From the IMG/VR virus record IMGVR_UViG_3300025890_000142, positions 1 to 25,689 of that record: a stretch of DNA of 25,689 bases; one strand, 5' to 3'. Positions within the stretch are counted from its first letter, which is position 1, and each line of letters begins with the position of its first letter. The notes below the pieces were generated by a model. The model saw only the letters and a program-made list of their open reading frames with translations, did no database searches and was not told where the DNA came from. A program made the translations under genes and the position numbers. Positions 767 to 25,689 of the stretch are shown piece after piece. This DNA is from a virus.

Positions 767-3700
767 ATGGCTTTTGTCTTAAAAGATCGTGTAAAAGAAA
801 GCACGACAACTACTGGTACAGGTGATTTAACTTTAGGTGGTTCTTCTGCTACGTTTGATGCATTTCAAACTTACATGTCAAATGGTGATACTACTTACTA
901 CAGCTTGTCACATACTGGTGCAGGAGTAGATGAATGGGAAGTAGGCATAGGTACTTGGAACACAGGTAATACTTTTAGTCGTACTACTATTTTAGCTGGG
1001 TCTAATAGTACATCTGCTGTCGATTTGTCAGCAGGTACTAAAGACATATTTATGACCTACCCTGCTGATAAAGCTATATTTAAAGATGCAAGTGGTAACT
1101 TAACTGTTAGTGGTAATCTTACAGTTGATGGTAGTACTACTACTATTAATTCAACTAACAAAGTTCTTACAGATAAACTAATAGAATTAGCAAGTGGTAC
1201 TAGCGGTTCAGCGTCAGGTGATGCTGGTATTGTTATAGAGCGTGGCAGTGATGCTAACGCTTTTATTGGTTTTGATGAAAGTGAAAACAAATTCAAACTA
1301 GGTACAGGTACTTTTACTGGTGCTTCTACTGGTGATCTTTCTATAACAACTGGTACTCTTATATCAAACCTTGAAGCAGACAGTGTTGTAGTTGGTGGAA
1401 CAGATGGCGTAACTTTAGGTCAAGGTTCTATATCTATAAAGAATGGTGGTTCACAGTCATATGTAGACTTTTACTGTGAAACAAGTAACGCACACTATGC
1501 AAGGCTTCAGGCTCCTGCCCATAGTGATTTTGGTGGTAATATTACTTTAACGCTACCTGCTACTACAGACACACTAGTTGGTAGAACAACTACAGATACT
1601 CTAACAAACAAAACACTAGCTGCTCCTGCAATGACAGGTACAACAACTTTTGGGGGTGCGTCAGGTGTTAGTATCGCTCAAGGTGCAATATCTATTAAGA
1701 ATGGTGGCACACAATCTTATGTAGATTTTTATTGTGAGTCTAGCAATGCACACTACGCTAGGTTACAGGCTCCAGCGCATAGTGCTTTTAGTGGTAACAT
1801 TACACTTACACTCCCTGCTACCACAGATACACTTGTAGCAAGAACAACTACAGATACACTTACTAATAAAACATTAACCGCACCTGTTATAACAAGTATT
1901 AGTAATAGTGGTACTATCACCCTTCCTACTGGAAATGATACATTAGTAGCTAGGGCTACAGTAGATACCCTAACAAATAAAACATTAACAACCCCTGCAA
2001 TAACAAGTCCTGCGATAACAGGCACTGCAACTTTTGGTGGAGCATCAGGTGTTAGTATTGCTCAGGGTGCTATATCTATAAAGAATGGTGGAACTCAATC
2101 ATACGTAGACTTCTACTGCGAATCAAGTAATGCTCATTACGCTAGACTACAAGCTCCAGCGCACTCAGCTTTTAGTGGTAATATTACTCTTACCCTCCCT
2201 GCTGCTACTGATACATTAGTAGGTAAAGCCACAACAGATACATTAACAAATAAAACTTTAACTTCCCCCACATTAACTTCCCCAGTTATAAACACTGGCG
2301 TAAGCGGTACAGCTATATTAGATGAAGATAATATGGCTAGTGACTCAGCTACAAAATTAGCTACACAACAGTCTATTAAAGCATACGTTGATGCAGAAGT
2401 CTCTGGTGTATCAGTTTCAACAGAGGCTGTTCAAGATATTGTTGGAGCTATGTTTAGTTCTAATACAGAGACAAATATAGCTGCTACTTATGAAGATGAT
2501 GATGGCACTATTGATCTTGTTGTTAACTCACTTCCTAATTCATCATTAGCAAATTCTTCTGTTTCTTTTGGTGGTATAAGTCTTGCATTAGGTGCTACTG
2601 ATGCTACTCCTGCTTTTGATTTGCAAGATGCTACTGGTTATCCTACCAGTTCACTTACAGGTACAATCACTAATGCCCAGCTTGCAGGATCTATAGCCAA
2701 CGCAAAACTAGCTAATAATTCTATAACTGTATCAGATGGTTCAAATTCTACTGCAACAGCTTTAGGGGGTACTATTACTTTTGCTGCTACTAGCAACGAA
2801 ACTACTGTAGCAGAAAGCTCAGGCACAGTAACTATTGGACTGCCCAGTGATGTAACTGTATCTAATGACCTTACCGTTTCAGGTAACCTAGTTGTTTCGG
2901 GTAGTACAACTCAAACAGGCGCTATTATAACAGACAACAACTTTACTGGTCTTACAAATGCCAACACAGGAAACGCTACAGACTTTGGTTTCTATGGAAA
3001 GTATGTAGAGTCTAGCACAACTAAGTATGCTGGTTTGTATTATGATGCATCAACAGATAACACTTTTAATTTATTCTGTGATACTCAAACTGTACCTTCC
3101 TCAACAATAAATACATCTGCTACAGGATATGCTGCTGCAAACTTGTCAATTAATAACTTAGTAGTAGGTGGAACTGTAGATGGGCGTGATGTAGCGGCTG
3201 ATGGAACTAAGCTTGATGGCATTGCAACTGGTGCAACTAATGTAACAAACACAAATCAGTTAACTAATGGCGCAGGGTTTATAACTTCGGCTGACGGTGG
3301 AAATGCAGCTACGCTAGATGGTATAGATAGTGCATCGTTTCTAAGAAGTGATACAGGTGATAGTTTTACTGGGAATACACTGAGTTATACAGGAAGTACT
3401 GATGAAAAGATAATTCTTTCTGGCTCAAGTAATCCTTACATAAGGTTTCGTGAAGGAAGTGATAACAAAGCATACATACAATGGCACTCTAGTAGCGGAA
3501 CCCTTTTTATAAGAAATACAGAGGATGGCTCTGGTATTAGAGTACATGACAGTCTTGAGTTCACTCCTGACGGAACAAACTTTTATAACATTTGGCACGC
3601 TAATAATGGTGGTTCGGGTTCAGGTTTAGATGCAGATACTTTAGATGGTGTGCAACCAAGTGCTTCCGCAGGTAATAGTACAATAGTTCAAAGACATTCT

Positions 3701-4726
3701 TCTGGCTATATCTATGCTAACTACTTCAATACAACACCTAATGATATTGCTACAGGTAGCATAACAAAAATTGTTGCTGAGAGTGGTAACGATGGTTTTA
3801 TGCGCCATGCAACTGCAGCCGCAGTAAGGTCATTTCTAAATGTTGAAGATGGCGCAACGGCTGGTGGTGGCGCAGCAGGTGCAGCATATCTTGACATAGC
3901 AACAGGCAACTACGGCACTGTTAAAGTAGACGATGATCGTGGTATTGGTTGGGCAGGGTATGCCATTCGTGATGATTGGGTGCTTATGTCGGATGGCCCA
4001 AGTAATTGTGGTATTTATAACGACACTGATAATGAATGGGGTGTGCTATGTAGGCGTAATGCTGAAGTAGAAATATGCCATAATGGGTCGGTCAAAATGG
4101 AAACAGCCAGTGACGGAATTACAGTCACAGGCAATGTTGACGTATCTGGTCAAGTTGAAATTGGCGGTGAGGTAATTTTAAAAGAAAGTTCTGATAGGGC
4201 AGACTTATTAGAAATAACATCTAGTACCTCTGGTTGGGCAGGAATACAAATCCGCAATAGCTCTGACGAAGGGCGTTGGTCTTTTATGACTGATGGTTCT
4301 TACTCAGGAATATATGACGATCAAAATAACGAGTGGTTGCAAAGGTGGAATGAAAACGGAAGTGTAAATATATATTATAATAACGTTGAAAAATTTGCAA
4401 CAAGTAGCACTGGTGTAACAATAACAGGCACAGCAAGTGCAACACAATTTACTGCTACATCAGACTTAGCTAAGAAAGAAAACTTAGAAGTTGTAGATAA
4501 TGCATTAAATAAGATTGACAAACTTACTGGTTACACGTATAATATGAAAGAAGATGGCTCTCGCAAAGCAGGGCTTATAGCGCAAGATGTAGAGAAAGTA
4601 TTACCCGAAGCGGTTGATGGTGAAGAAGGTGAAAAGACACTGGACTATAGTGCAACCATAGCCTTGTTAGTTAATGCCATCAAAGAGCAACAGAAACAAA
4701 TAGAAGAACTTAAGGCAAGGTTATGA
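767..4726 (+). CDS. Long tail fiber with C-terminal S74 intramolecular chaperone
   Basis: This 1319-residue fiber has four visible parts. Residues 1-105 form an N-terminal module (MAFVLKDRVKESTTT start, a TTYYSLSH segment, ending near MTYPADKAI) that probably anchors the fiber to the virion. A beta-rich shaft with SGNLTVDGSTT-type motifs follows. Three repeats lie at about residues 210-500, each with IKNGG.QSYVDFYCE and ending in TDTLTNKTL. The C-terminus from residue 1232 matches the S74 chaperone of endosialidase: SDLAKKENLE, then GYTYN, then AGLIAQDVEKVLPEAV, and a terminal coiled coil. In that family the fiber trimerises and the chaperone cleaves itself off before the Ser of the SD pair, so mature product would end near residue 1231. 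The stop overlaps the next start (ATGA), which indicates translational coupling. It probably binds the host surface; the receptor is unknown. Confidence 0.85.
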   Translation: MAFVLKDRVKESTTTTGTGDLTLGGSSATFDAFQTYMSNGDTTYYSLSHTGAGVDEWEVGIGTWNTGNTFSRTTILAGSNSTSAVDLSAGTKDIFMTYPADKAIFKDASGNLTVSGNLTVDGSTTTINSTNKVLTDKLIELASGTSGSASGDAGIVIERGSDANAFIGFDESENKFKLGTGTFTGASTGDLSITTGTLISNLEADSVVVGGTDGVTLGQGSISIKNGGSQSYVDFYCETSNAHYARLQAPAHSDFGGNITLTLPATTDTLVGRTTTDTLTNKTLAAPAMTGTTTFGGASGVSIAQGAISIKNGGTQSYVDFYCESSNAHYARLQAPAHSAFSGNITLTLPATTDTLVARTTTDTLTNKTLTAPVITSISNSGTITLPTGNDTLVARATVDTLTNKTLTTPAITSPAITGTATFGGASGVSIAQGAISIKNGGTQSYVDFYCESSNAHYARLQAPAHSAFSGNITLTLPAATDTLVGKATTDTLTNKTLTSPTLTSPVINTGVSGTAILDEDNMASDSATKLATQQSIKAYVDAEVSGVSVSTEAVQDIVGAMFSSNTETNIAATYEDDDGTIDLVVNSLPNSSLANSSVSFGGISLALGATDATPAFDLQDATGYPTSSLTGTITNAQLAGSIANAKLANNSITVSDGSNSTATALGGTITFAATSNETTVAESSGTVTIGLPSDVTVSNDLTVSGNLVVSGSTTQTGAIITDNNFTGLTNANTGNATDFGFYGKYVESSTTKYAGLYYDASTDNTFNLFCDTQTVPSSTINTSATGYAAANLSINNLVVGGTVDGRDVAADGTKLDGIATGATNVTNTNQLTNGAGFITSADGGNAATLDGIDSASFLRSDTGDSFTGNTLSYTGSTDEKIILSGSSNPYIRFREGSDNKAYIQWHSSSGTLFIRNTEDGSGIRVHDSLEFTPDGTNFYNIWHANNGGSGSGLDADTLDGVQPSASAGNSTIVQRHSSGYIYANYFNTTPNDIATGSITKIVAESGNDGFMRHATAAAVRSFLNVEDGATAGGGAAGAAYLDIATGNYGTVKVDDDRGIGWAGYAIRDDWVLMSDGPSNCGIYNDTDNEWGVLCRRNAEVEICHNGSVKMETASDGITVTGNVDVSGQVEIGGEVILKESSDRADLLEITSSTSGWAGIQIRNSSDEGRWSFMTDGSYSGIYDDQNNEWLQRWNENGSVNIYYNNVEKFATSSTGVTITGTASATQFTATSDLAKKENLEVVDNALNKIDKLTGYTYNMKEDGSRKAGLIAQDVEKVLPEAVDGEEGEKTLDYSATIALLVNAIKEQQKQIEELKARL
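1394..2260 (+). repeat. Three repeated fiber modules (IKNGG...LTNKTL)
   Basis: Module copies begin at 1394, 1652 and 2036. Each carries IKNGG(S/T)QSYVDFYCE, then NAHYARLQAPAHS, then NITLTLPA, and ends with DTLTNKTL. Copy 2 also has an extra LPTGNDTLVARATVDTLTNK half-module before copy 3. Copies 2 and 3 are identical over 56 consecutive residues (1652-1819 and 2036-2203), yet by my count 28 of those 56 codons differ. Copy 1 differs from copy 2 at about 10 of the same 56 residues. Confidence 0.9.
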
Positions 4727-10797: not shown

Positions 10798-12672
10798 ATG
10801 GCAGGATATACACGTCAAGCGACAGCTAACATAGTTACAGGTGCAGTTATTGATGCTGCAGACTTTAACTCAGAATATAATGCTATTGAAGCAGCATTTA
10901 ATGCAACAACAGGGCATACACACGATGGTAGTACGGGAAATGGACCACCCATTGAAAACTTAGGTCCCTCCCAGGATTTAGTAGTTACATCTAGTGTTGT
11001 ACGTGCTAAGACAGACAACACCTACGACTTAGGTACGTCCTCTATTGAATGGAAAGATGGCTTCTTTGATGGAACACTAAGAACAGATATACTTACTGTA
11101 GATGAAACTTCTACTTTAACAGGAAACGTAACAGCTTCTGCAGATGTCTCTGTTGGTGGCAACCTTACAGTCACAGGTAATGCTACAATAAATGGTAACT
11201 TAACATTTGGTGATGCTGATACAGATAGTGTTGCTTTTGGTGCAGACATTACTAGTAGCTTAATACCAGATGGATCAACTCAGGATTTAGGTAGTAGCAC
11301 AAAGCAGTGGCGTAATCTTTACATAGATGGAACAGCTAACATAGATGCTCTTGTAGCTGATACTGCTGACATAAATGGTGGTAGTATTGATGGTACTATA
11401 ATAGGTGCTAATGCTACTGCTGCTATTACAGGTACAACAATTACAGGTACTAGTCTTGTTGGTCCTCTTACAGGTAACGCATCGGGGTCTGCTGGCTCTT
11501 GTACTGGTAATTCAGCTACAGCGACAAAACTAGCAACAACACGTGCTATAGCGTTAAGTGGTGCAGTCACTGGTACTGCAAACTTTGACGGTAGTGCTGG
11601 TATTACAATATCAACCACTGCAGCATCTGATCCTAGTCTTACTTTGCAGGGAGATGTCACTGGCTCTGCAACATTTACTAACCTTGGCAATGCCACTCTA
11701 ACTGCATCACTAGCCGCAAACTCTGTAGGAACTAGTGAGATAGCTACCAACGGTGTAGGAACTACTGAAATAGCAGCAGACGCAGTTACTTCAGCTAAGA
11801 TTGCAGCAGGTGCTGTAGACAGTACAGCACTTGCAACTGATGCAGTAACTACAGCTAAGATAGCTGACAATGCAATAACTGCAGCTTTGATAGCAGCTAA
11901 TGCTGTAGGAGCTAGTGAAATAGCAGCTAACGCTGTGGGATCAAGTGAAATTGCTACCAATGCTGTTGGTTCTGATGAAATAGCAGCTAACGCTGTAGGG
12001 GCAAGTGAAATTGCTGCATCTGCTGTAGGGGCAAGTGAGCTTAATGTTAGTGGTAATGGTACTACTTCTGAGTTCTTACGTTCAGATGGGGATGGTACAT
12101 TTACATGGGCTACTCCTGCTGGACAAACTCTTACTGGGGGTACTTCTATTTCTATAAGTGGGTCAGCAATTAATTTAGATGCAGACTCAAGGTTTGGTAA
12201 TGCTGTTGATGTTAAAGTTGGTAATGATCACGAATACATTAGGTTTAATCCATCTTCAAATGGTCAAATAAATTTTCATAATAATAACGGTACTGAAAAT
12301 ATGAGATTGTTTGGTGGTGGAGGCCTACAAGTTAAGGATAATATTACTGCATTCTCCACAACAGTTTCAGACCAACGTTTAAAGCATGATATTGAAAAAA
12401 TAGAAGGTGCTTTGGATAAAGTAACAAAACTAAGTGGTTATACATTTAGCTATAATAAAGATAGTAAAAAGTCTGCTGGTGTATTAGCACAAGAAGTAGA
12501 GAAAGTACTACCATCTGCTGTAGAAAATAAGTCACTAGTATTTCATGGTGAAGAGAATGTTGAATATAAAACAGTACAGTATGACCAGCTTCATGGATTA
12601 CTAATAGAAGCTATCAAAGAACTAAAAGAAAAACTAGATGAATGTAAGTGTAAAAAGTGTGAGTGTGAGTAA
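10798..12672 (+). CDS. Second tail fiber with S74 chaperone and Cys-rich tail
   Basis: This 624-residue fiber starts with an N-terminal module (MAGYTRQATANIVTGAVIDA, then HTHDGSTGNGPP) typical of phage fibers. A shaft follows with VGGNLTVTGNATINGNLTFG, two DLG(T/S)S...W(K/R) motifs and LVGPLTGNASGSAGSCTGN. Eleven decapeptide repeats lie at residues 308-417. An S74 chaperone begins at Ser524 (SDQRLKHDIEKIEGALDKV), with GYTFSY and AGVLAQEVEKVLPSAV. The C-terminus is a coiled coil that ends with Cys616, Cys618, Cys621 and Cys623 among charged residues. By family precedent the chaperone would be released by cleavage before Ser524. It follows the nozzle gene and overlaps the next gene (TAATG). It is one of two S74 fibers in the window, and the N-terminus differs from that of the first, so the two probably attach at different sites. 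Confidence 0.85.
   Translation: MAGYTRQATANIVTGAVIDAADFNSEYNAIEAAFNATTGHTHDGSTGNGPPIENLGPSQDLVVTSSVVRAKTDNTYDLGTSSIEWKDGFFDGTLRTDILTVDETSTLTGNVTASADVSVGGNLTVTGNATINGNLTFGDADTDSVAFGADITSSLIPDGSTQDLGSSTKQWRNLYIDGTANIDALVADTADINGGSIDGTIIGANATAAITGTTITGTSLVGPLTGNASGSAGSCTGNSATATKLATTRAIALSGAVTGTANFDGSAGITISTTAASDPSLTLQGDVTGSATFTNLGNATLTASLAANSVGTSEIATNGVGTTEIAADAVTSAKIAAGAVDSTALATDAVTTAKIADNAITAALIAANAVGASEIAANAVGSSEIATNAVGSDEIAANAVGASEIAASAVGASELNVSGNGTTSEFLRSDGDGTFTWATPAGQTLTGGTSISISGSAINLDADSRFGNAVDVKVGNDHEYIRFNPSSNGQINFHNNNGTENMRLFGGGGLQVKDNITAFSTTVSDQRLKHDIEKIEGALDKVTKLSGYTFSYNKDSKKSAGVLAQEVEKVLPSAVENKSLVFHGEENVEYKTVQYDQLHGLLIEAIKELKEKLDECKCKKCECE
11719..12048 (+). repeat. Eleven in-frame 30-base repeats (NAVGxSEIAA type)
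   Basis: Eleven consecutive ten-residue units run without a single insertion or deletion. Examples are NAVGASEIAA, NAVGSSEIAT, DAVTTAKIAD and NAITAALIAA. The last units are most alike. A strict 10-residue period suggests a repeating trimeric shaft with a fixed rise per unit. Confidence 0.95.
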
Positions 12673-15666: not shown

Positions 15667-17259
15667 ATGGTAGAATATAATCCTCGTAGTATAGATCAAA
15701 TGTATGAGCAGTATGGCAGGGTACAGTCTTCTAGGGCTGCAAAGTTTAACAAGTCGCCCTTGGATGACAATACTAGTAGTGGCTTTGGTGGTATGGGGCC
15801 AGACCCTGAAGCTAAAGCTAAGGGATTAGGCTCTCCAACAAATCAAACTAGTAAGAAAGATGATGACGATGATAAAGAAGTTGGTGGTATTGGTAGGTTG
15901 TTTTCCAAGTTTTTTGGAGCAGCAGAAAGTGCTGGCCTAGAGTTTAAAAAGCTTGATAGACCTAAACCTTCTATCTATGACAGAGATGACATGAAGCCTA
16001 TTGATATAGATGCTATGGACAAACGTATAGATGATGCAGTTAACTTTGATCTTGCAAATCCATTACCCTCTATGAACTTTAAGGATGATGAGTATGCAGC
16101 AAGTACTTACGATGAAGTGCAACCCTTAGAGGGCGCAGATACATACAAAGCTAGAAGGACAACAGCACAGGGTATCAACGACACTATCAAAGGACTTATG
16201 GATACAGAACAAAGACAGACAGACATAAGGCAAGCTGTTAATAAAACTATAGAAAGCCTGAAGTCTGCTGATGCTAACGTACCTTATGTAATACAAGCAG
16301 GTGATACTCTATCTGATATAGCTGCTAAGACAGGTACTACTGTACAAGACTTAGTTAAAACAAATAATATAAAAGACAAAAACAAAATATACACTGGTAA
16401 TGAATTAATAGTACCTACAGATAAAACTACTAAGACTAAAGAAGAGATTGTTAATAATCTTGTTGAAAATTATGAAATAAGGATAACCACAAGAGGTGAT
16501 GAAGATCCACAAAGACAGTTCAACCAGTCTGGTGTACCTATGGATCAAAGAGATTTTGCACCAGAGGATACAACTGGTTTTGGTGGGATGGGGCCAGATC
16601 CAAGTACAGGTCAATCAATTACTAAAGGCTTAATGTCTAAAGCAGATGATGATATGGGCTTGCCTTATACAAGGTCTGATACAGAACAGATAATAGCACT
16701 TGAGCCTATGTTTAAGTTTATTGAAAAAGGTGAGGGTGATTATAACTCTAGTAACAGAGGCACTATAGGAAAAAATATAAAAGGCAGTACAAATAATACA
16801 ATTAGAGATGGTAAAAAACTAACTGAAATGACTATCGGTGAAATAAAAGAAAAGCAAGAAATAACAGACCCTAACAATCCTGAAAGACTTTATGCTGTAG
16901 GTAGATTCCAAGCAATACCAACTACTTTAGATATGGCTATTGATGATTTAGCTTTATCAGATGATACAGTATTTAATGAAGACACACAAGATAAGATTGG
17001 TAAATATTTAATTACTAAAAAAAGAAAGAAAGTAGGAGAGTATTTAGAAGGTAATAACTCCGTTAGTCAAGATGAAGCAATGCTGCAGTTAGCAAAAGAG
17101 TTTGCTTCTTTTCCTGTACCAAAAGATATGACTATTAAAAGAGGCGGTAAAACTGTAAAGCTTAAAAAAGGCGATAGCTACTACGGAAATGGAAATAAAG
17201 CGCAACATACCTTCGAGGAAGTAGAGGAAGAGCTAGACAAACTAAGAGGAAATATGTAA
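15667..17259 (+). CDS. LysM and lysozyme-like peptidoglycan hydrolase
   Basis: This 530-residue protein has four parts. Residues 1-200 are flexible. Residues 207-250 are a LysM domain (YVIQAGDTLSDIAAKTGTTV, then NNI...IYTGNELIVP), which binds peptidoglycan. Residues 255-340 are a second linker. Residues about 345-485 are a lysozyme or transglycosylase-like domain, with FIEKGEGDYNSSNRG (Glu353 or Glu356 as candidate catalytic acid) and YAVGRFQAIPTTL, which resembles the GRYQ motif of lambda-type endolysins. A motif GFGGMGPDP occurs twice, at residues 39-47 and 304-312. The long linkers, no signal peptide and flanking internal virion genes point to a virion-borne hydrolase that opens the wall during entry. 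A role as the lysis endolysin is the main alternative. Confidence 0.75.
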   Translation: MVEYNPRSIDQMYEQYGRVQSSRAAKFNKSPLDDNTSSGFGGMGPDPEAKAKGLGSPTNQTSKKDDDDDKEVGGIGRLFSKFFGAAESAGLEFKKLDRPKPSIYDRDDMKPIDIDAMDKRIDDAVNFDLANPLPSMNFKDDEYAASTYDEVQPLEGADTYKARRTTAQGINDTIKGLMDTEQRQTDIRQAVNKTIESLKSADANVPYVIQAGDTLSDIAAKTGTTVQDLVKTNNIKDKNKIYTGNELIVPTDKTTKTKEEIVNNLVENYEIRITTRGDEDPQRQFNQSGVPMDQRDFAPEDTTGFGGMGPDPSTGQSITKGLMSKADDDMGLPYTRSDTEQIIALEPMFKFIEKGEGDYNSSNRGTIGKNIKGSTNNTIRDGKKLTEMTIGEIKEKQEITDPNNPERLYAVGRFQAIPTTLDMAIDDLALSDDTVFNEDTQDKIGKYLITKKRKKVGEYLEGNNSVSQDEAMLQLAKEFASFPVPKDMTIKRGGKTVKLKKGDSYYGNGNKAQHTFEEVEEELDKLRGNM

Positions 17260-19727: not shown

Positions 19728-22700
19728 ATGCCAAACTATTTAGAACTAAAAAGAAAGAGAGAAGCAAGGCTCTCCAATGTTCCTACACCTACTAGTATGG
19801 TGGAAGAAGAGGATGACTTTATCCTTGACCCTGAAGCTACCCTCAAGAAGGATGACTTGAAAAAGGGTAGAAACCTAAACGACATACGCACCTATATGAT
19901 AGGGCGTAAGGGTGTAGACTATAAGACGATGGATGCAGATCAAGCTGTTGATGATTATGTAGAACACCTGCGCTTCTTCAATGCTAACACTGTTTCTACT
20001 GCAGGTGAGGTACGCTATATTAATAAGGCAACCCCAGAACAAAAAGAGGCAGCTAGAAGAGCATATGAACTATACGATAGGCTAGGTAATGTATTTGTAA
20101 ATGATGGTGTATATGGTGCAATAGATGGTGTCAAGGATTATGTATTTGCTGCAGCTACAGACCCTACTAATTACTTAGGTGTGGCTACTGGTGGTATAGC
20201 ACGTGCATATGCTGGTGGTGCTAGGATGTTTGGTAAGAAAGTTATTGCTGACTCTGTACGTAAAGTTCGTATGGAAGCTATAGCTAGTGGTGCAAACAAA
20301 GCTGCTGCGGATAAAGCTGCACTTGCTGCTGGAAGAGAAGCAGTAAAGAGAGCAGTAGCTGCTGGCGTTGGTAAAAGAAAAGCTGCTGGTGTTGGTGAGA
20401 AAGTAAAAGATCGTGTCTATAGAGATGGACGCAGGGCGTTGGTCAAGAAAGCTATGGATGATGAACAACGCAATCTGTATGACAGAGCTAGTGGCAAGGC
20501 ATTAAAAGCTACTATAGGTATTGATGCAGGAGCAGCTATGCTTCAAGACAACATGGTACAAAATGCTGAAATGGAAGTAGGCGCACAGGAAAAGTATAGT
20601 GCTATGCAGACAGGCCTATCTGCTTTCCTTGGTGGTGTAGCAGGTGGAGCGCAGTTAGGCTTCGGTAAGTTTCGTGGAGCATCAGGTCTTGCTGATGAAC
20701 GTGATCCATTAGATCGTGTAGCTAACATTGCTGTTGAAGAACTATCTCCTATATTCAAAAAGAAAGACATGAAAGCAATATCAACTTCCATGAAGAAAGA
20801 GATAACTGCTTGGAATAAAAAGGTAGAGGATGGAAGAGATGCTACATCTGCAACCATGCCAGCAGACTTAATCAAACACATTATGTTAGGAGAAGATAAC
20901 AAGGGTGGCCTAGCTAAAATATTTAAAGATAAAAATATGAAGCTGTCTCGTAAGAAAACAGTATCAGATGTACTTACTAACGTAGCTACATTCTTACCAC
21001 CTAGTGAGCTTGGTGAAATAAATAAGCTTATGAGACAAAAGACAGGTATTGTAATAGGAGAAGCTGCAGAAGATGGCACACAACTAGGAGACTTTTTAGC
21101 TAAAGATATTAGTAATGCTGGTCAGACTCTAAACGTAATGAGTCAGGTTCGTAAGACGTTAGACTCCAGTTTAGTTGCTGCTAGTGAGAGACTTACAAAA
21201 ACACTAGATGAAGTTAATAGTAAAGAAGAGATAGGTGCAGAACTAAAGAAAGCTAAGAATGCAGAAGGTATACGTTACGGTCAGTCTGTATGGAAACGTT
21301 TGCTTGTATCCTCTCCTGCTACAACAGCCGTTAACGTTGCAGGTTTTGGTCAGTACTACATAGGTCAGACTGTTGCGGATCTGTTTAACTCTACAGGCTT
21401 AATGACAAAAGGCTTAGGTCAATTAGCTTTAGGTAAGACAGCAGGAGCTACAGAAAGTTTTAGACGTGCAAAAGCTTTGACTGCTATACAGTCACAGAAG
21501 TTGAGAAACTTTGCAGACCCGTACACTACACATGATGCATACATGAAACTGCTAGATGAGAACCAAGATGCACGTAAGCTACTCTTTGAAACTATCTCTG
21601 GTGGTATAGAAATAAATGCTGATAGATACGGCATAAACCCAAAGAACAAACTCTATAGAAACGTAGAAGCTGGAGCTAAGGCTGCTGCTGATGCTTCAGG
21701 TGTACGTGTACAGGATAGCTTTACTAAGTCACAAATGTTTATAACAGAGCTTGATAAGTACTTACGTATCTCTAAGGATGTTACTTTAAAAGAAGCATTA
21801 ATGTCTGATGACAATATGCTAGATGATAATGTAATGCAAGCTGCACTAGATGCAACTCTTAAGTCAGTCTACTCAAAAGACTACACATCAAAAGATCAAC
21901 CACAGCTACTACGTTCTACAGCTAAGTTAGTTGAGACAATCTCAAACACACCTGGTATAGGAACACTGTTACCCTTTGGTAGGTTTATGAATAATGTGGT
22001 TGCTACATCTTATCAGTGGTCACCCTTTGCTACTCCTGAGTTTTTCTATCAGTATGGTAAACGTATATTGAAAGGACAAAAAGCAGACTTGCAAGAGGGT
22101 GAGGTAGCTGCTCGTATACTTGTAGGTTCTACTGCTGGTTACATGGCTATGCAGTACGATAAAGAAAGACAGGAAAAGAAACTAGGTGTGTATGAAATAG
22201 AAGGACCAGGTGGCGCTATCATAGACGCTAAGAATACTTTTCCTTTCTCTGTATTTCTTGCAGTAGGTAGAGCATTAAATATAAAGTATGTACAAGGTGA
22301 AGATGTACCTAGAGAATTAATACAAGAGTTAGGTACTCAGCTTGCCGTTGGTCAGGTATCAAGAGACTTCCAGTTTGCTAATGACTTGAACAACTTGCTT
22401 GATGTTTTAATAAACGAGGATGGTGCTAAGAGGGGTGATGGTATACATGCTTTTTCTAAAGCTTCTGGTAATTTACTAGCAGGTGTAACCAGACCACTAG
22501 ATGCTATTAATAAGGTAGCAGGTTTTGCTATGGGTACAGACACAGCTAAAGATGTAAGACAGGCAGAAGGGATAGATGTATTCACACAGAGTGCAACTAA
22601 GTATGTTGACAATATCTTCGAAGTCTTTTCAGATAAGACAGAAGCTATAACAGGTGAAGAGTTAAGAGTGGCAACAAGGGAAGGTGAAGTGTATGATGCT

Positions 22701-23192
22701 AATCCTTACTCTAAGATATATGGACTTACTGTTAAGCCCTCTCGTACAGCTACAGAGATAGCTTACACTATGTCTGAAATGTTTCCTTGGTCTGCTAGTG
22801 AGCGTACAAAAGTACCTGCGTATGATAAGATCTTTAATACTATAATATCCCCTATACTAGAACAGAAGACAGACTTTCTAATAAGGAGTAAGCAGTTTAA
22901 TGATGCAAGCCTTACAGGTAAACGGGATATGTTAAACAAAGTTGTAAGCCAAGTTAAGGCTGATGTAAGAAAAAGGATGGAAGCAGGGTACTTAGGTGGT
23001 GATAGTCAAAGACTTCGCATGGCAGCTAAAGCAATGGCAGTTCCAAAAGGTATAAGGAAAGAAGCTCTTACTATGATGAAAGAACAGTATGGAGTAGAGG
23101 CATCTATTGAGGACTTTAGTATAGCAGAGACTGATACATTCTTAGAGATAGTTGATTATCTTAAAGATGTGTATGATGAAGTAGGAACATAG
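19728..23192 (+). CDS. Very large internal virion / DNA-ejection protein
   Basis: This 1154-residue protein is the last structural gene, with a good AGAGGA ribosome site at 19717-19722. The N-terminal third contains an MIGRKGVDYKTMDADQAVDD block and a hydrophobic Gly/Ala region near residues 140-170. Next comes a very basic Ala/Lys-rich region (AAADKAALAAGREAVKRAVA). The central part has KRLLVSSPATTAVNVAGFGQ (about residues 522-541) and a second amphipathic stretch after it. The C-terminal third is helical with no long membrane spans. Size, position at the end of the late block and amphipathic segments resemble T7 gp16-type ejection proteins, but there is no visible transglycosylase domain here; that activity would come from the protein encoded at 15667. 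The role is inferred. Confidence 0.6.
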   Translation: MPNYLELKRKREARLSNVPTPTSMVEEEDDFILDPEATLKKDDLKKGRNLNDIRTYMIGRKGVDYKTMDADQAVDDYVEHLRFFNANTVSTAGEVRYINKATPEQKEAARRAYELYDRLGNVFVNDGVYGAIDGVKDYVFAAATDPTNYLGVATGGIARAYAGGARMFGKKVIADSVRKVRMEAIASGANKAAADKAALAAGREAVKRAVAAGVGKRKAAGVGEKVKDRVYRDGRRALVKKAMDDEQRNLYDRASGKALKATIGIDAGAAMLQDNMVQNAEMEVGAQEKYSAMQTGLSAFLGGVAGGAQLGFGKFRGASGLADERDPLDRVANIAVEELSPIFKKKDMKAISTSMKKEITAWNKKVEDGRDATSATMPADLIKHIMLGEDNKGGLAKIFKDKNMKLSRKKTVSDVLTNVATFLPPSELGEINKLMRQKTGIVIGEAAEDGTQLGDFLAKDISNAGQTLNVMSQVRKTLDSSLVAASERLTKTLDEVNSKEEIGAELKKAKNAEGIRYGQSVWKRLLVSSPATTAVNVAGFGQYYIGQTVADLFNSTGLMTKGLGQLALGKTAGATESFRRAKALTAIQSQKLRNFADPYTTHDAYMKLLDENQDARKLLFETISGGIEINADRYGINPKNKLYRNVEAGAKAAADASGVRVQDSFTKSQMFITELDKYLRISKDVTLKEALMSDDNMLDDNVMQAALDATLKSVYSKDYTSKDQPQLLRSTAKLVETISNTPGIGTLLPFGRFMNNVVATSYQWSPFATPEFFYQYGKRILKGQKADLQEGEVAARILVGSTAGYMAMQYDKERQEKKLGVYEIEGPGGAIIDAKNTFPFSVFLAVGRALNIKYVQGEDVPRELIQELGTQLAVGQVSRDFQFANDLNNLLDVLINEDGAKRGDGIHAFSKASGNLLAGVTRPLDAINKVAGFAMGTDTAKDVRQAEGIDVFTQSATKYVDNIFEVFSDKTEAITGEELRVATREGEVYDANPYSKIYGLTVKPSRTATEIAYTMSEMFPWSASERTKVPAYDKIFNTIISPILEQKTDFLIRSKQFNDASLTGKRDMLNKVVSQVKADVRKRMEAGYLGGDSQRLRMAAKAMAVPKGIRKEALTMMKEQYGVEASIEDFSIAETDTFLEIVDYLKDVYDEVGT

Positions 23193-23212: not shown

Positions 23213-23238
23213 AAGGGGCCGCATTTAGCGGCCCTTTT
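23213..23238. terminator. Terminator between converging transcription units
   Basis: Bases 23213-23222 pair with 23228-23237 (AAGGGGCCGC with GCGGCCCTTT, one G-T wobble) around an ATTTA loop. On the plus strand it ends in TTTT. On the minus strand the sequence after the stem reads CTTTTAGTG, also T-rich, so it can stop transcription from both sides. It lies 20 bases after the last plus-strand stop codon, and the minus-strand zinc-ribbon gene ends inside its T-run (stop at 23238-23240). Confidence 0.9.
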
Positions 23239-23417
23239 CATTTCCAGTATAACAATAAGAATGTATCACAAGTATTGCAACTAAAGTTGCTAACTATGAA
23301 ATCATCCTCTCCATCGTGGTCACCACCTTGTATCATTTCGGTGTCACACTTAGGACATATTATCTTTCCTTTACGTTTAGCCTCCATGTATTCTTTTGCC
23401 TCACGTTCTAAGTTCAT
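23238..23417 (-). CDS. Small zinc-ribbon protein
   Basis: This protein has 59 residues from ATG at 23417-23415. A TTG start at 23420 would add one residue but is less likely. The protein is helical and charged for its first 18 residues (NLEREAKEYMEAKRKGK), then has CPKC and, after a 22-residue acidic loop (GGDHDGEDD), CNTC, a typical four-Cys zinc ribbon. Its stop falls in the terminator T-run. The start overlaps the stop of the upstream gene by one base (TGATG). Zinc ribbons of this size often bind DNA, RNA or a protein partner. Coupling to the nuclease-like gene suggests the two act together, which is inference. Confidence 0.75.
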   Translation of the reverse strand: MNLEREAKEYMEAKRKGKIICPKCDTEMIQGGDHDGEDDFIVSNFSCNTCDTFLLLYWK

Positions 23418-23869
23418 CAAGCTACCTGTATTAACTCTGCTTCTTGGTAAGGTATATGATAGAAGGTTTCATTCTTTGGTATCCTGTAGTTAGGACCCGT
23501 AGGTTTCTTTAGATTATCGTCAGACATTTGACTAGCTTTAATCTTCCAAGCTTGCTCATAGTTTTTATCTACTATGTAGAAGAATAACTTATCAGCATCA
23601 TACTTCTCAAGCAATCTTCTTTTTCTTCCAGGGATACGTATCTCTGCCCACCAGGTAGGCCAATCACCACTCCATTGAGCTTTACGTTCTACTTCGTGAT
23701 AATAGGTAGTACCTTCTTTCTCACTTACAACATCAGCATTATAATCTTCTTTGCTTTGTATTATGCTGTGTCCTTGCAACTCTAAATATTTTATTAGGGC
23801 TTTTTTACAAGGTGCATCTACTTTATCGTAGACATCTTTCTTAAATTTTCTTACATATACTTCTGTCAT
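23417..23869 (-). CDS. PD-(D/E)XK-like nuclease candidate
   Basis: This 150-residue protein has a very strong GGAGG ribosome site at 23876-23880. After an N-terminal helix (CKKALIKYLELQGHSIIQSK) come NADVVSEKEG and then YYHEVERKAQW: an Asp on one strand followed by E-x-K (Glu-Arg-Lys) on the next, the core arrangement of PD-(D/E)XK nucleases. WWAEIRIPGRKRRLLEKYDA and LFFYIVDKNYEQAWKI follow as expected for the later helix and strand. T7 also carries a small nuclease of this fold (gp3), but the sequence here differs from it. The gene lies in the RNR operon next to a zinc ribbon. I infer DNA processing or host DNA breakdown. Without structural comparison the fold call is moderate. Confidence 0.55.
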   Translation of the reverse strand: MTEVYVRKFKKDVYDKVDAPCKKALIKYLELQGHSIIQSKEDYNADVVSEKEGTTYYHEVERKAQWSGDWPTWWAEIRIPGRKRRLLEKYDADKLFFYIVDKNYEQAWKIKASQMSDDNLKKPTGPNYRIPKNETFYHIPYQEAELIQVA

Positions 23870-23870
23870 T

Positions 23871-24068
23871 CTATACCTCCTGTGGTATTTGTGTACACCA
23901 TACCCAATAGTCTGCTTCCCACATAGATTTAGGTCTAGTAGCCTCTAGATAATCACTGCGTTCAGTTGCAGCTTCATTGCACTTCTCTCTACTTTCGTAT
24001 AATATGTTGTCGCTCATAATCATTGGCTCCTCATTGAATATAAAGAGTGCTACTAAAACCCAAGCCAT
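23871..24068 (-). CDS. Small protein with hydrophobic N-terminus
   Basis: This protein has 65 residues from ATG at 24068, with AAGGA at 24075-24079. The first 11 residues are hydrophobic (MAWVLVALFIF), followed by a polar body with Cys30 and Cys58, SREKCNEAATERSDY and DYWVWCTQIPQEV. The layout resembles a very short membrane anchor or signal with a body that could be held by one disulfide outside the cytoplasm. The hydrophobic part is short for a full span. I do not recognise a family. It is coupled to the nuclease-like gene, whose ribosome site lies within its last codons and the stop region. Confidence 0.5.
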   Translation of the reverse strand: MAWVLVALFIFNEEPMIMSDNILYESREKCNEAATERSDYLEATRPKSMWEADYWVWCTQIPQEV

Positions 24069-24071
24069 ATC

Positions 24072-24185
24072 TTATTCCTTCACTTCTGTGTATTGATCTA
24101 CTTTATCTGACACCCAAGGTGATACCTTCTCTACGATGTCTGCTGTTACTAAGAAAGCAATTAATGCTCCGATTACTACGTCCAT
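24072..24185 (-). CDS. 37-residue membrane peptide in the RNR operon
   Basis: This small gene has ATG at 24185-24183, TAA at 24074-24072 and an AGGAG ribosome site at 24192-24196 that overlaps the stop of the RNR gene. The peptide begins MDVVIGALIAFLVTADIVEK: an Asp followed by a hydrophobic helix of about 15 residues, then a polar tail (VSPWVSDKVDQYTEVKE). This looks like a single-span small membrane protein with the C-terminal part outside the lipid. The tight spacing on both sides (9 bases from the RNR stop, 3 bases to the next start) argues that it is translated. Function is unknown; candidates include a small holin-type or regulator peptide. Confidence 0.65.
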   Translation of the reverse strand: MDVVIGALIAFLVTADIVEKVSPWVSDKVDQYTEVKE

Positions 24186-24190
24186 ATTTA

Positions 24191-24196
24191 ACTCCT
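24191..24196 (-). promoter_or_regulatory. Ribosome site for the 37-residue peptide
   Basis: AGGAGT on the minus strand lies 5 bases before the ATG and overlaps the RNR stop codon TAG. This supports the small gene at 24072-24185 as real. Confidence 0.65.
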
Positions 24197-25689
24197 ATGT
24201 TATATCGACTACTTCACACACGTCCCCAGAGCAAGCAAAAGTTTGACTGGACTTAGTGTTATCTTCTTGTTCATACTCTGAAAGTTTACTCCAGTCAATC
24301 TTTTCTGGCATACATGATAATAAATATTCATAGTCATGCTTACCACAATCTTGATAAGGTGCTTGCTGATAGGTATGGTCTGAGTGTGGTAAAAATGACA
24401 CACCTGACATTTCGTCAAAGTGTCTGTAGACAAAGGCTCCCACATCAAGCCATTCATCATCCCGTACTGATATTGTAACTGAGGGCTTATGCTCACACCA
24501 ATAGCGTTGGTACATGATCCAAGTCTCTAGCTGTTCAATAGCAGTCATATCGTTTCGTGTTATCGCTTGCTCTGGTGCTTTTACAGGGAAGCTGAACACG
24601 GTTGTAGTATCACCCTTGAATACACATGGCTCATTAGGTACACCATTGTCAATCATAAACTGTGTAAGGGGATCTTTATTATCACCTCGTACAGTACGGA
24701 TGTAATATGGAGAGTGACGAGCATGTATACCACTGGCACTGTCCACCAACTGCGAGACAGTACCCGAAGGTTTGACGCAGGTAATAGCAGCAGACTGAGG
24801 TATACCAAGCAAGTCAGCGTATTCAAGATTAGTAGCCACTGCGACATTTCGTAGTTCATCTAGTACTCCTGCAAGTTTAGCGTTAACTGAGGTCATCAAT
24901 GGGTTGTCCATGATACCTGTTAGTGACACACCAAGCAATCTCTCTTCTTCTGTATTACGTTGCCACACTTTACGCAAGTAAGGAAACTTTGTGTACGAGC
25001 TTTGGATTGTCCCAAGTATTGTGGCGAGTTTGACTTTACGCTCCAAGTCTTTAACCGAATCAGTGGCACGAACAACAACCTCCGTAAGATTGCAGAACTG
25101 GTAGGGTCTAAGTATGATTTCACTGCATGGATTAGTTCCGAACTGCCAGTCAGGATCACGCCTACCATACTTCGCAGCTTGTGCTTTAGATGCTTCACGA
25201 TTAAAGATACCTCTCTCACCTGATTTACTTTCTACCAACGCAGTCCACTCACGCATGAATGTTTCTATGTCAGGTCTTTCTGTATAGGAAACAGAGTTGT
25301 TAGCCAATGCTCTGTGTGGTGCTGTCTCCCACCACTGTCCTGACTTAGCATGACGCATACGATCATCACTCAGGTTGGACAAAGAAATCATGGCTGACCT
25401 ACGTACACCACCCACTACAACTATTTGACCAATGAAACACATCAAGTCATGGCACTCCATAGAGGTAAGCTTACGTCCTTGTGCATTCTTAAAAGTGTTG
25501 ACTGAAAAGTTAAACAACTCGACAAGAGGTCCAGGTCCACTAGCTCTACCACCAAACGTCTTGAGCCTAGCACCTGCAGGGCGCACACGTGACACATCCC
25601 ACTGTGGTATCTCACCTGCCCATAGTAAGGCTAGTAGTTGTCTGAACGACTTAGCCCAACCTTCTTTGCTATCCTTAACTACAATGGTA
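24195..25689 (-). CDS. nrdJ: Class II ribonucleotide reductase, C-terminal part
   Basis: About 497 C-terminal residues are visible; the frame continues past the right edge without a start. The protein reduces ribonucleotides to deoxyribonucleotides with adenosylcobalamin as radical source and fits the monomeric triphosphate-type class II enzyme. Signs are GGVRRSAMISL, LANNSVSYTERPD, the active-site motif NPCSEI at 25116-25133 (Cys with Glu two residues on), CVKPSGTVSQLVDSASGIHA and RHSPYYIRTVRGD, HKPSVTISV, SGVSFLPHSDHTYQQAPY, and a C-terminal redox pair CSGDVC at 24216-24233. The usual residue after Cys in the first motif is Gly; here it is Ser. No intein or intron breaks the visible part. 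It leads the minus-strand operon and would supply dNTPs for phage replication, given B12 in the host. Confidence 0.9.
   Translation of the reverse strand, partial: TIVVKDSKEGWAKSFRQLLALLWAGEIPQWDVSRVRPAGARLKTFGGRASGPGPLVELFNFSVNTFKNAQGRKLTSMECHDLMCFIGQIVVVGGVRRSAMISLSNLSDDRMRHAKSGQWWETAPHRALANNSVSYTERPDIETFMREWTALVESKSGERGIFNREASKAQAAKYGRRDPDWQFGTNPCSEIILRPYQFCNLTEVVVRATDSVKDLERKVKLATILGTIQSSYTKFPYLRKVWQRNTEEERLLGVSLTGIMDNPLMTSVNAKLAGVLDELRNVAVATNLEYADLLGIPQSAAITCVKPSGTVSQLVDSASGIHARHSPYYIRTVRGDNKDPLTQFMIDNGVPNEPCVFKGDTTTVFSFPVKAPEQAITRNDMTAIEQLETWIMYQRYWCEHKPSVTISVRDDEWLDVGAFVYRHFDEMSGVSFLPHSDHTYQQAPYQDCGKHDYEYLLSCMPEKIDWSKLSEYEQEDNTKSSQTFACSGDVCEVVDIT

Follow-up and report, generated by a model that had tools for sequence, protein, structure and literature searches.

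The window, meaning the whole stretch of DNA analysed here, is a 25,689-base virus record in which one minus-strand arm meets a convergent virion arm at the region of interest. Its source is a marine podovirus akin to the HMO-2011-type and cobavirus-type roseophages, both of which have a wide reported distribution in the oceans (PMC9038755, PMC6775973). At the DNA level, the closest cultured relatives of the region are CRP-207 and CRP-603 (~70%). The features of the minus-strand arm that concern us are as follows.

24195..25688, minus strand: class II (B12-dependent) ribonucleotide reductase (RNR), the anchor of the locus; its 5' end lies beyond the window edge
24072..24185, minus strand: 37-aa peptide (P4 family) with a hydrophobic, helix-length stretch and a charged tail
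23871..24068, minus strand: 65-aa two-cysteine protein (P3 family), predicted to be soluble with a beta-beta-alpha-beta order
23876..23881, minus strand: AGGAGG Shine-Dalgarno-like motif within the final codons of the 65-aa gene and 6 bases 5' of the nuclease ATG
23417..23869, minus strand: predicted 150-aa PD-(D/E)XK endonuclease, current occupant of an exchange slot (from an AlphaFold2 model, an alignment and its replacement in relatives)
23681..23734, minus strand: putative nuclease active-site region D46 ... E59-x-E61-x-K63, invariant in 88 aligned sequences
23238..23417, minus strand: 59-aa terminal gene encoding an N-terminal tag and a zinc ribbon (C21, C24, C47, C50)
23376..23411, minus strand: the N-terminal tag, LEREAKEYMEAK, common to last-gene proteins of unrelated families
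23268..23357, minus strand: Cys4 zinc ribbon core, with untagged versions in other marine phages
23216..23234, minus strand: GC-rich terminator-like hairpin (fold -17.8 kcal/mol, z -3.5) with a T-rich stretch after it

The reductase is recognized by PHROG 367 (E 3e-148) and by the Pfam RNR barrel and RNR-II insertion domain. As the original prediction had it, four small genes follow directly downstream on the same minus strand, and all four open reading frames (ORFs) are taken as real rather than chance because each has close IMG/VR relatives and dN/dS is low (nuclease family 0.07, ribbon family 0.11). Their tight packing in front of a single terminator was likewise borne out: the spacings from the RNR to the last gene are 9, 3 and 1 base, followed by a stop/start overlap, and the hairpin at 23216-23234 divides the RNR arm from the convergent virion gene at 19728-23192. 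Two arms converging on a terminator are known for cobaviruses (PMC6775973). A search of the window against Rfam gave no match. On the plus strand, two virion proteins (767-4726 and 10798-12672) have similar C-terminal stretches that resemble an intramolecular chaperone of the S74 type, and the product of 15667-17259 contains a LysM-like stretch, YVIQAGDTLSDIAAKTGTTVQDLVKTN, and is perhaps a virion-borne cell-wall protein.

The 150-, 65- and 37-aa proteins have no significant family in Pfam, PHROGs or PADLOC, and for the 150-aa protein the fold was approached by structure prediction. An AlphaFold2 (AF2) model built with 12 relatives (mean pLDDT 82.6, pTM 0.79) places helices at residues 11-31 and 81-89 and strands at 35-38, 47-51, 54-62, 76-80 and 95-100, and these elements follow the alpha-beta-beta-beta-alpha-beta core order of PD-(D/E)XK nucleases. 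The top Foldseek matches are Holliday junction resolvases (2eo0, E 9.4e-4; Hjc) and I-Ssp6803I (2ost, E 1.1e-3), and VIA-align gives Z-scores of 8-10 against Hjc, the SPARDA nuclease domain and I-Ssp6803I. Among Hjc structures the scores reach 9.8 (1gef) and 9.7 (2wcw), so that the overall Hjc-type fold is matched. Eight residues (D46, E59, E61, K63, W66, R82, K83 and E134) do not vary among the 88 aligned sequences; D46 opens strand 47-51 and E61-x-K63 ends strand 54-62, which sets D and (D/E)xK on adjacent strands. Model, structural matches and invariant residues together bear out the earlier guess that this gene encodes a PD-(D/E)XK-like nuclease: the protein is predicted to have the restriction-nuclease fold with a conserved active site.

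With the archaeal Hjc resolvases the protein shares a predicted fold (Z 8-10 over ~105 residues) at 10-20% identity. Its best match outside the resolvases is I-Ssp6803I, an intron-encoded homing endonuclease, with a Z-score of 8.1 over 115 residues at 10-15% sequence identity; the gene in the window is free-standing. The top structural matches in BFVD are unnamed proteins of phages and proteins of giant viruses of the klosneuvirus type. The sole match of the nuclease profile to PDB sequences, tardigrade SAHS1 (E 0.0025), is regarded as spurious.

Relatives of the nuclease are common in marine viruses. They were found in at least 565 of the 599 IMG/VR stretches listed as family-pattern matches, so that over 500 marine viral contigs encode one; wherever the neighbors were examined, these relatives lie behind the RNR or its satellite genes. 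Twenty-one phage records carry a relative, usually as an unannotated hypothetical protein; in those that were opened, it sits behind the RNR together with glutaredoxin, PhoH, MazG or DUF3310 genes. SIO1 lacks a separate coding sequence for the relative, which there falls under a misc_feature labelled PhoH. Among 187 pattern matches from about 85,000 genomes of bacteria and archaea, none was confirmed as a relative. In both the window and the annotated phage records examined, the nuclease is thus inserted beside a conserved functional gene, downstream of the RNR.

Comparison across loci reveals that 23417-23869, where the RNR operon ends, is a slot in which free-standing DNA endonucleases are exchanged; no prior description of it was found in the cited literature. 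Among 144 non-redundant RNR loci (hereafter numbered with the prefix L), a set that is biased because many were retrieved using the nuclease itself, 78 slots hold the PD-(D/E)XK protein, 31 a GIY-YIG protein of the T5orf172 family and 14 an endonuclease-VII type protein (HNH7). The remaining slots comprise 14 with no recognized occupant, which need not be empty in every locus, two with both types in tandem, and single loci with other genes. The 62 loci retrieved by RNR alone give 21 PD-(D/E)XK, 14 GIY-YIG, 11 HNH7 and 11 with none recognized. By Pfam, the alternative occupants are identified as T5orf172 (E 3e-13) and Endonuclease_7 (E 3e-14). As to the rarer occupants, that of L246 matches an endonuclease PHROG, that of L060 is another putative PD-(D/E)XK protein, and those of L221 and L257 are taken as further candidates of the same kind from an E/D-x-K pattern. 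Relatives of the window that carry the 37-aa, 65-aa and ribbon genes mostly have a different occupant between them (GIY-YIG, endonuclease VII or the L060 protein) or none.

The exchange is precise and separates close relatives. Relatives whose RNR DNA is 95-98% identical bear different occupants, swapped exactly from start codon to stop codon. For instance, the window and L034 have 96.7% identical RNR DNA and different occupants; homology ends at the start codon of the slot gene and restarts two codons before its stop, so that only the ORF differs. Similarly, L274 and L277 (RNR 97.7% identical) differ in occupant, while of L049 and L056 (96.4%) the former has no occupant and the latter an HNH7 gene. 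In L049 and L059, whose slots are unoccupied, the 65-aa gene and the last gene join directly through a stop/start overlap. Mapped on the RNR tree, occupants have switched at least 33 times, and the HNH7 type is scattered almost randomly (12 changes in 14 rows). Alleles turn over within the PD-(D/E)XK family as well: L023 and L141 have 94% identical RNRs and 40% identical nucleases, and overall nuclease identity barely tracks RNR identity (Spearman 0.16). On a larger scale, the RNR and virion-side trees conflict in their placement of the window with L036, a grouping rejected on the virion side (AU p 5e-8) and not on the RNR side. Recombination has thus taken place between the two arms, somewhere between the RNR and the virion gene and not provably at the slot. 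The mosaic flanks at the slot are compatible with co-conversion and give no direction.

Given the precise ORF exchange, the alternative nuclease families, the unoccupied alleles and the adjacency to RNR, homing-type exchange is the most likely cause of this pattern. We put at about one half the probability that the slot is a site for free-standing homing-type nucleases, like that of mobE and hef at the T4 nrd genes; the homing step itself we infer. Occupied and unoccupied alleles with conserved flanks display the sporadic presence typical of free-standing homing endonucleases, and the occupants are free-standing ORFs with folds known among such enzymes (I-Ssp6803I-like for the resident nuclease, T5orf172 and Endonuclease_7 for the alternatives). 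In such a scheme, when a co-infecting phage does not carry this occupant, the nuclease would cut the matching region of its genome, and recombinational repair would then copy in the cassette with some flanking DNA, amounting to intronless homing with local marker exclusion. The carrier genome would be spared as the insert splits or alters the target.

Several known systems resemble this locus. In T4-like phages, mobE and hef are both directed at one nrd gene (PMC2988022); there, too, different nuclease families target or occupy one position beside a ribonucleotide reductase gene, and the case provides a precedent for intronless homing and marker exclusion. The present locus differs in having a class II RNR, a marine podovirus background and a PD-(D/E)XK occupant. 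Homing members are documented for T5orf172 (PMC10448857) and for proteins with the Endo VII motif (PMC6083498). RNR occurs in 33% of T5orf172 neighborhoods (PMC10448857), and the T5orf172 and IPA-HNH homing genes described at genetic-exchange boundaries in that survey share with our loci a T5orf172 occupant beside RNR and mosaic flanks. The survey covers T5orf172 and IPA-HNH; our slot is occupied most often by a PD-(D/E)XK family that matches nothing in Pfam or PHROGs. The F-CphI and Endo VII-motif homing endonucleases (PMC6083498) find their counterpart in the endonuclease VII-type occupants of relatives; the window has none.

The main rival to homing is that the PD-(D/E)XK protein serves the phage as a stably kept nuclease, which mobile nucleases displace from time to time. 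Such a domesticated phage enzyme might resolve junctions or branches in the manner of Hjc, or break down host DNA to feed nucleotides into the RNR pathway; GIY-YIG and HNH enzymes would replace it because they are able to do a similar job, an instance of non-orthologous displacement. We regard this as a possible explanation, less probable than homing. Omega is 0.07 for the PD-(D/E)XK family, compared with 0.09 for the RNR and 0.35 for the GIY occupants, and no disrupted copy of the nuclease is present in the aligned set. Low omega, intact copies and a place next to the RNR or its satellite genes in all loci examined, across very different RNRs, are more like a settled useful gene than a transient selfish one, and the unusually strong purifying selection argues partly for a domesticated enzyme. 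The nearest solved folds are the archaeal Hjc resolvases, and the neighbors encode RNR, glutaredoxin, MazG and PhoH. Junction resolvases are known, too, in the endonuclease VII and GIY-YIG families. Against these points, about 10% of loci have no recognized nuclease in the slot, and the GIY occupants are loosely constrained and sometimes disrupted. Five GIY-YIG copies have internal stops and are apparently decaying (L226:5722-6306, L232:5722-6282, L270:5421-6056, L277:5473-5988 and L278:1999-2619), while the PD-(D/E)XK occupants are intact. Moreover, every testable GIY, HNH7 and occupant-free locus has a T7-type endonuclease I gene upstream; of the 24 testable PD-(D/E)XK (NUC) loci, 12 have a copy and in the other 12 none was detected. 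Its presence throughout the first three groups, whatever their slot state, counts for homing and against the domesticated enzyme, and gives no support to a non-orthologous swap between endonuclease I and the slot nuclease.

The fast turnover of occupant type and allele could also be read in terms of conflict, with the slot nucleases serving as weapons against particular competitors or satellites, like Odn of ICP1, and retained because they interfere, not because they propagate themselves. Odn-type antagonists are indeed found among the T5orf172 proteins (PMC8263062). No satellite or target is known in these hosts, however, and the low omega and invariant core of the nuclease do not suggest a changing target, which makes this explanation improbable.

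On the homing reading, the small proteins of 37 and 65 aa would be neighbors of the slot and not nuclease subunits, and so would the product of the tagged terminal gene. Relatives of the 37-aa peptide (45-100% identical) occur between the RNR and the 65-aa gene in ~30 IMG/VR loci. Its single hydrophobic stretch is long enough for a membrane helix, in keeping with the membrane peptide first proposed, and a small membrane protein is plausible. Between the window (24072-24185) and L034 (2881-2994), the 37-aa products are only ~53% identical despite a near-identical RNR and 65-aa gene; their comparison points to a second small exchange between those two genes. The 65-aa protein, on the other hand, had been described as anchored or exported-looking, a view that the AF2 model (mean pLDDT 89) does not favor. 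Strands are predicted at 3-11, 14-19 and 53-60 and a helix at 27-44; the hydrophobic N-terminus thereby becomes a beta strand, and the protein is predicted to be a compact soluble beta-beta-alpha-beta domain that is not anchored. C30, P46, C58 and P62 are invariant in 41 P3 sequences. Comparison with the PDB gave no clear match (best Foldseek E 0.24, VIA Z at most 6.5), a result that is not evidence of a new fold. The last gene of cobaviruses (62 aa; L025:5650-5838, L027:6005-6193 and L030:5655-5843) resembles the P3 family by eye.

The end of the 65-aa gene may explain how a newcomer is accommodated. A Shine-Dalgarno-like motif is found at 48 of 75 distinct P3 gene ends versus 7% of same-length RNR windows, and the AGGAGG in the last codons of the window's copy is probably the ribosome-binding site for whichever gene comes next. 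With this site supplied by the neighboring gene and stop/start overlaps at both ends of the slot, an incoming ORF would be expressed with the operon.

For the last gene, the most likely start is ATG 23417 (59 aa, with a TGATG overlap with the nuclease stop) and not TTG 23420, because its relatives start at the ATG. Its Cys4 pattern agrees with the zinc ribbon proposed for it. A broader suggestion was that nuclease and ribbon form a complex that, helped by two membrane or exported proteins, serves host takeover or anti-defence. The tight, overlapping genes behind one operon would suit such a module, small early phage genes are often anti-host, and an alternative last gene in relatives is weakly Acb2/Tad1-like, as described below. 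The ribbon and nuclease are nevertheless freely recombined among loci. Only 3 of the 78 nuclease-only loci have the ribbon; it accompanies a GIY-YIG nuclease in 10 loci, an endonuclease VII type in one and no recognized nuclease in another. A dedicated pair is therefore not supported, the ribbon occurring with PD-(D/E)XK in 3 loci versus other or no nucleases in 12. Nothing found points to host takeover. Nor did PADLOC, whose coverage of counter-defence is limited, point to anti-defence for any window gene, with no match for the nuclease, 65-aa and 37-aa proteins and only a weak one for the ribbon (E 0.017). With the 65-aa protein also predicted to be soluble, a complex of this kind is improbable. 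Stand-alone ribbons of 52-54 aa with the core MIQGGDHD...SNFxCPxC are found in other marine phages (L097-L107, L112, L121) and appear to be a widespread family without a clear Pfam model.

What the window's ribbon shares with unrelated last-gene proteins is its N-terminus. The tag, with the motif L-x-x-E-A-x-x-F/Y (LEREAKEYMEAK in the window), is present on unrelated proteins that are encoded last before the terminator, including those of L005, L026, L028, L040, L160 and L200. It is carried by 14 of 14 ribbons, 21 of 22 RDYF-type proteins and most helical proteins, and was detected in 157 of 1501 family ORFs versus one in shuffles. MazG has the tag in 10 of 10 cases when encoded behind the RNR and in 0 of 99 when in front of it; likewise, the tag is absent from a ribbon in front of the RNR (L091) and from the stand-alone ribbons of other phages. 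The tag thus depends on gene position, whatever domain comes after. When families are compared, identical residues of the tag agree at the third codon position in a fraction of 0.38-0.58, compared with 0.57 in the RNR. Synonymous sites as diverged as those of the RNR speak against a recent DNA recombination handle and imply that the tag is conserved as a peptide, at the protein level. No prior description of such a position-specific tag was found in the cited literature.

In many relatives, a helical protein takes the place of the ribbon (e.g. L200:4945-5148 and L040:3745-3933). The commonest Pfam match of this family is the Acb2/Tad1 hairpin, hit by 10 of 22 members (best E 0.0029, short of the curated cutoff). 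Among PDB sequences Tad1 ranks first (E 0.076), with T4 Vs.4 also listed (E 1.3). From these similarities, the helical protein is a possible cyclic-nucleotide sponge, a weak though consistent pointer to counter-defence in which the last gene of the window has no part. One might go further and view the end of the RNR operon as a two-slot platform, on which a homing-type nuclease, by converting its surroundings again and again, shuttles a tagged last gene (zinc ribbon, MazG, RDYF or Acb2/Tad1-like), the tag docks these proteins to a common partner and some of the cargo serves counter-defence; we consider this unlikely.

For marine phages, the analysis offers a predicted function for a gene that is present in more than 500 viral contigs and has until now been annotated as hypothetical. 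Should the tag prove to be a docking signal, the placement of accessory genes in phages would be subject to a constraint of a new kind. Finally, occupied, unoccupied and multi-family alleles behind a near-identical operon form a natural series that could serve to weigh homing of a PD-(D/E)XK enzyme against its domestication.
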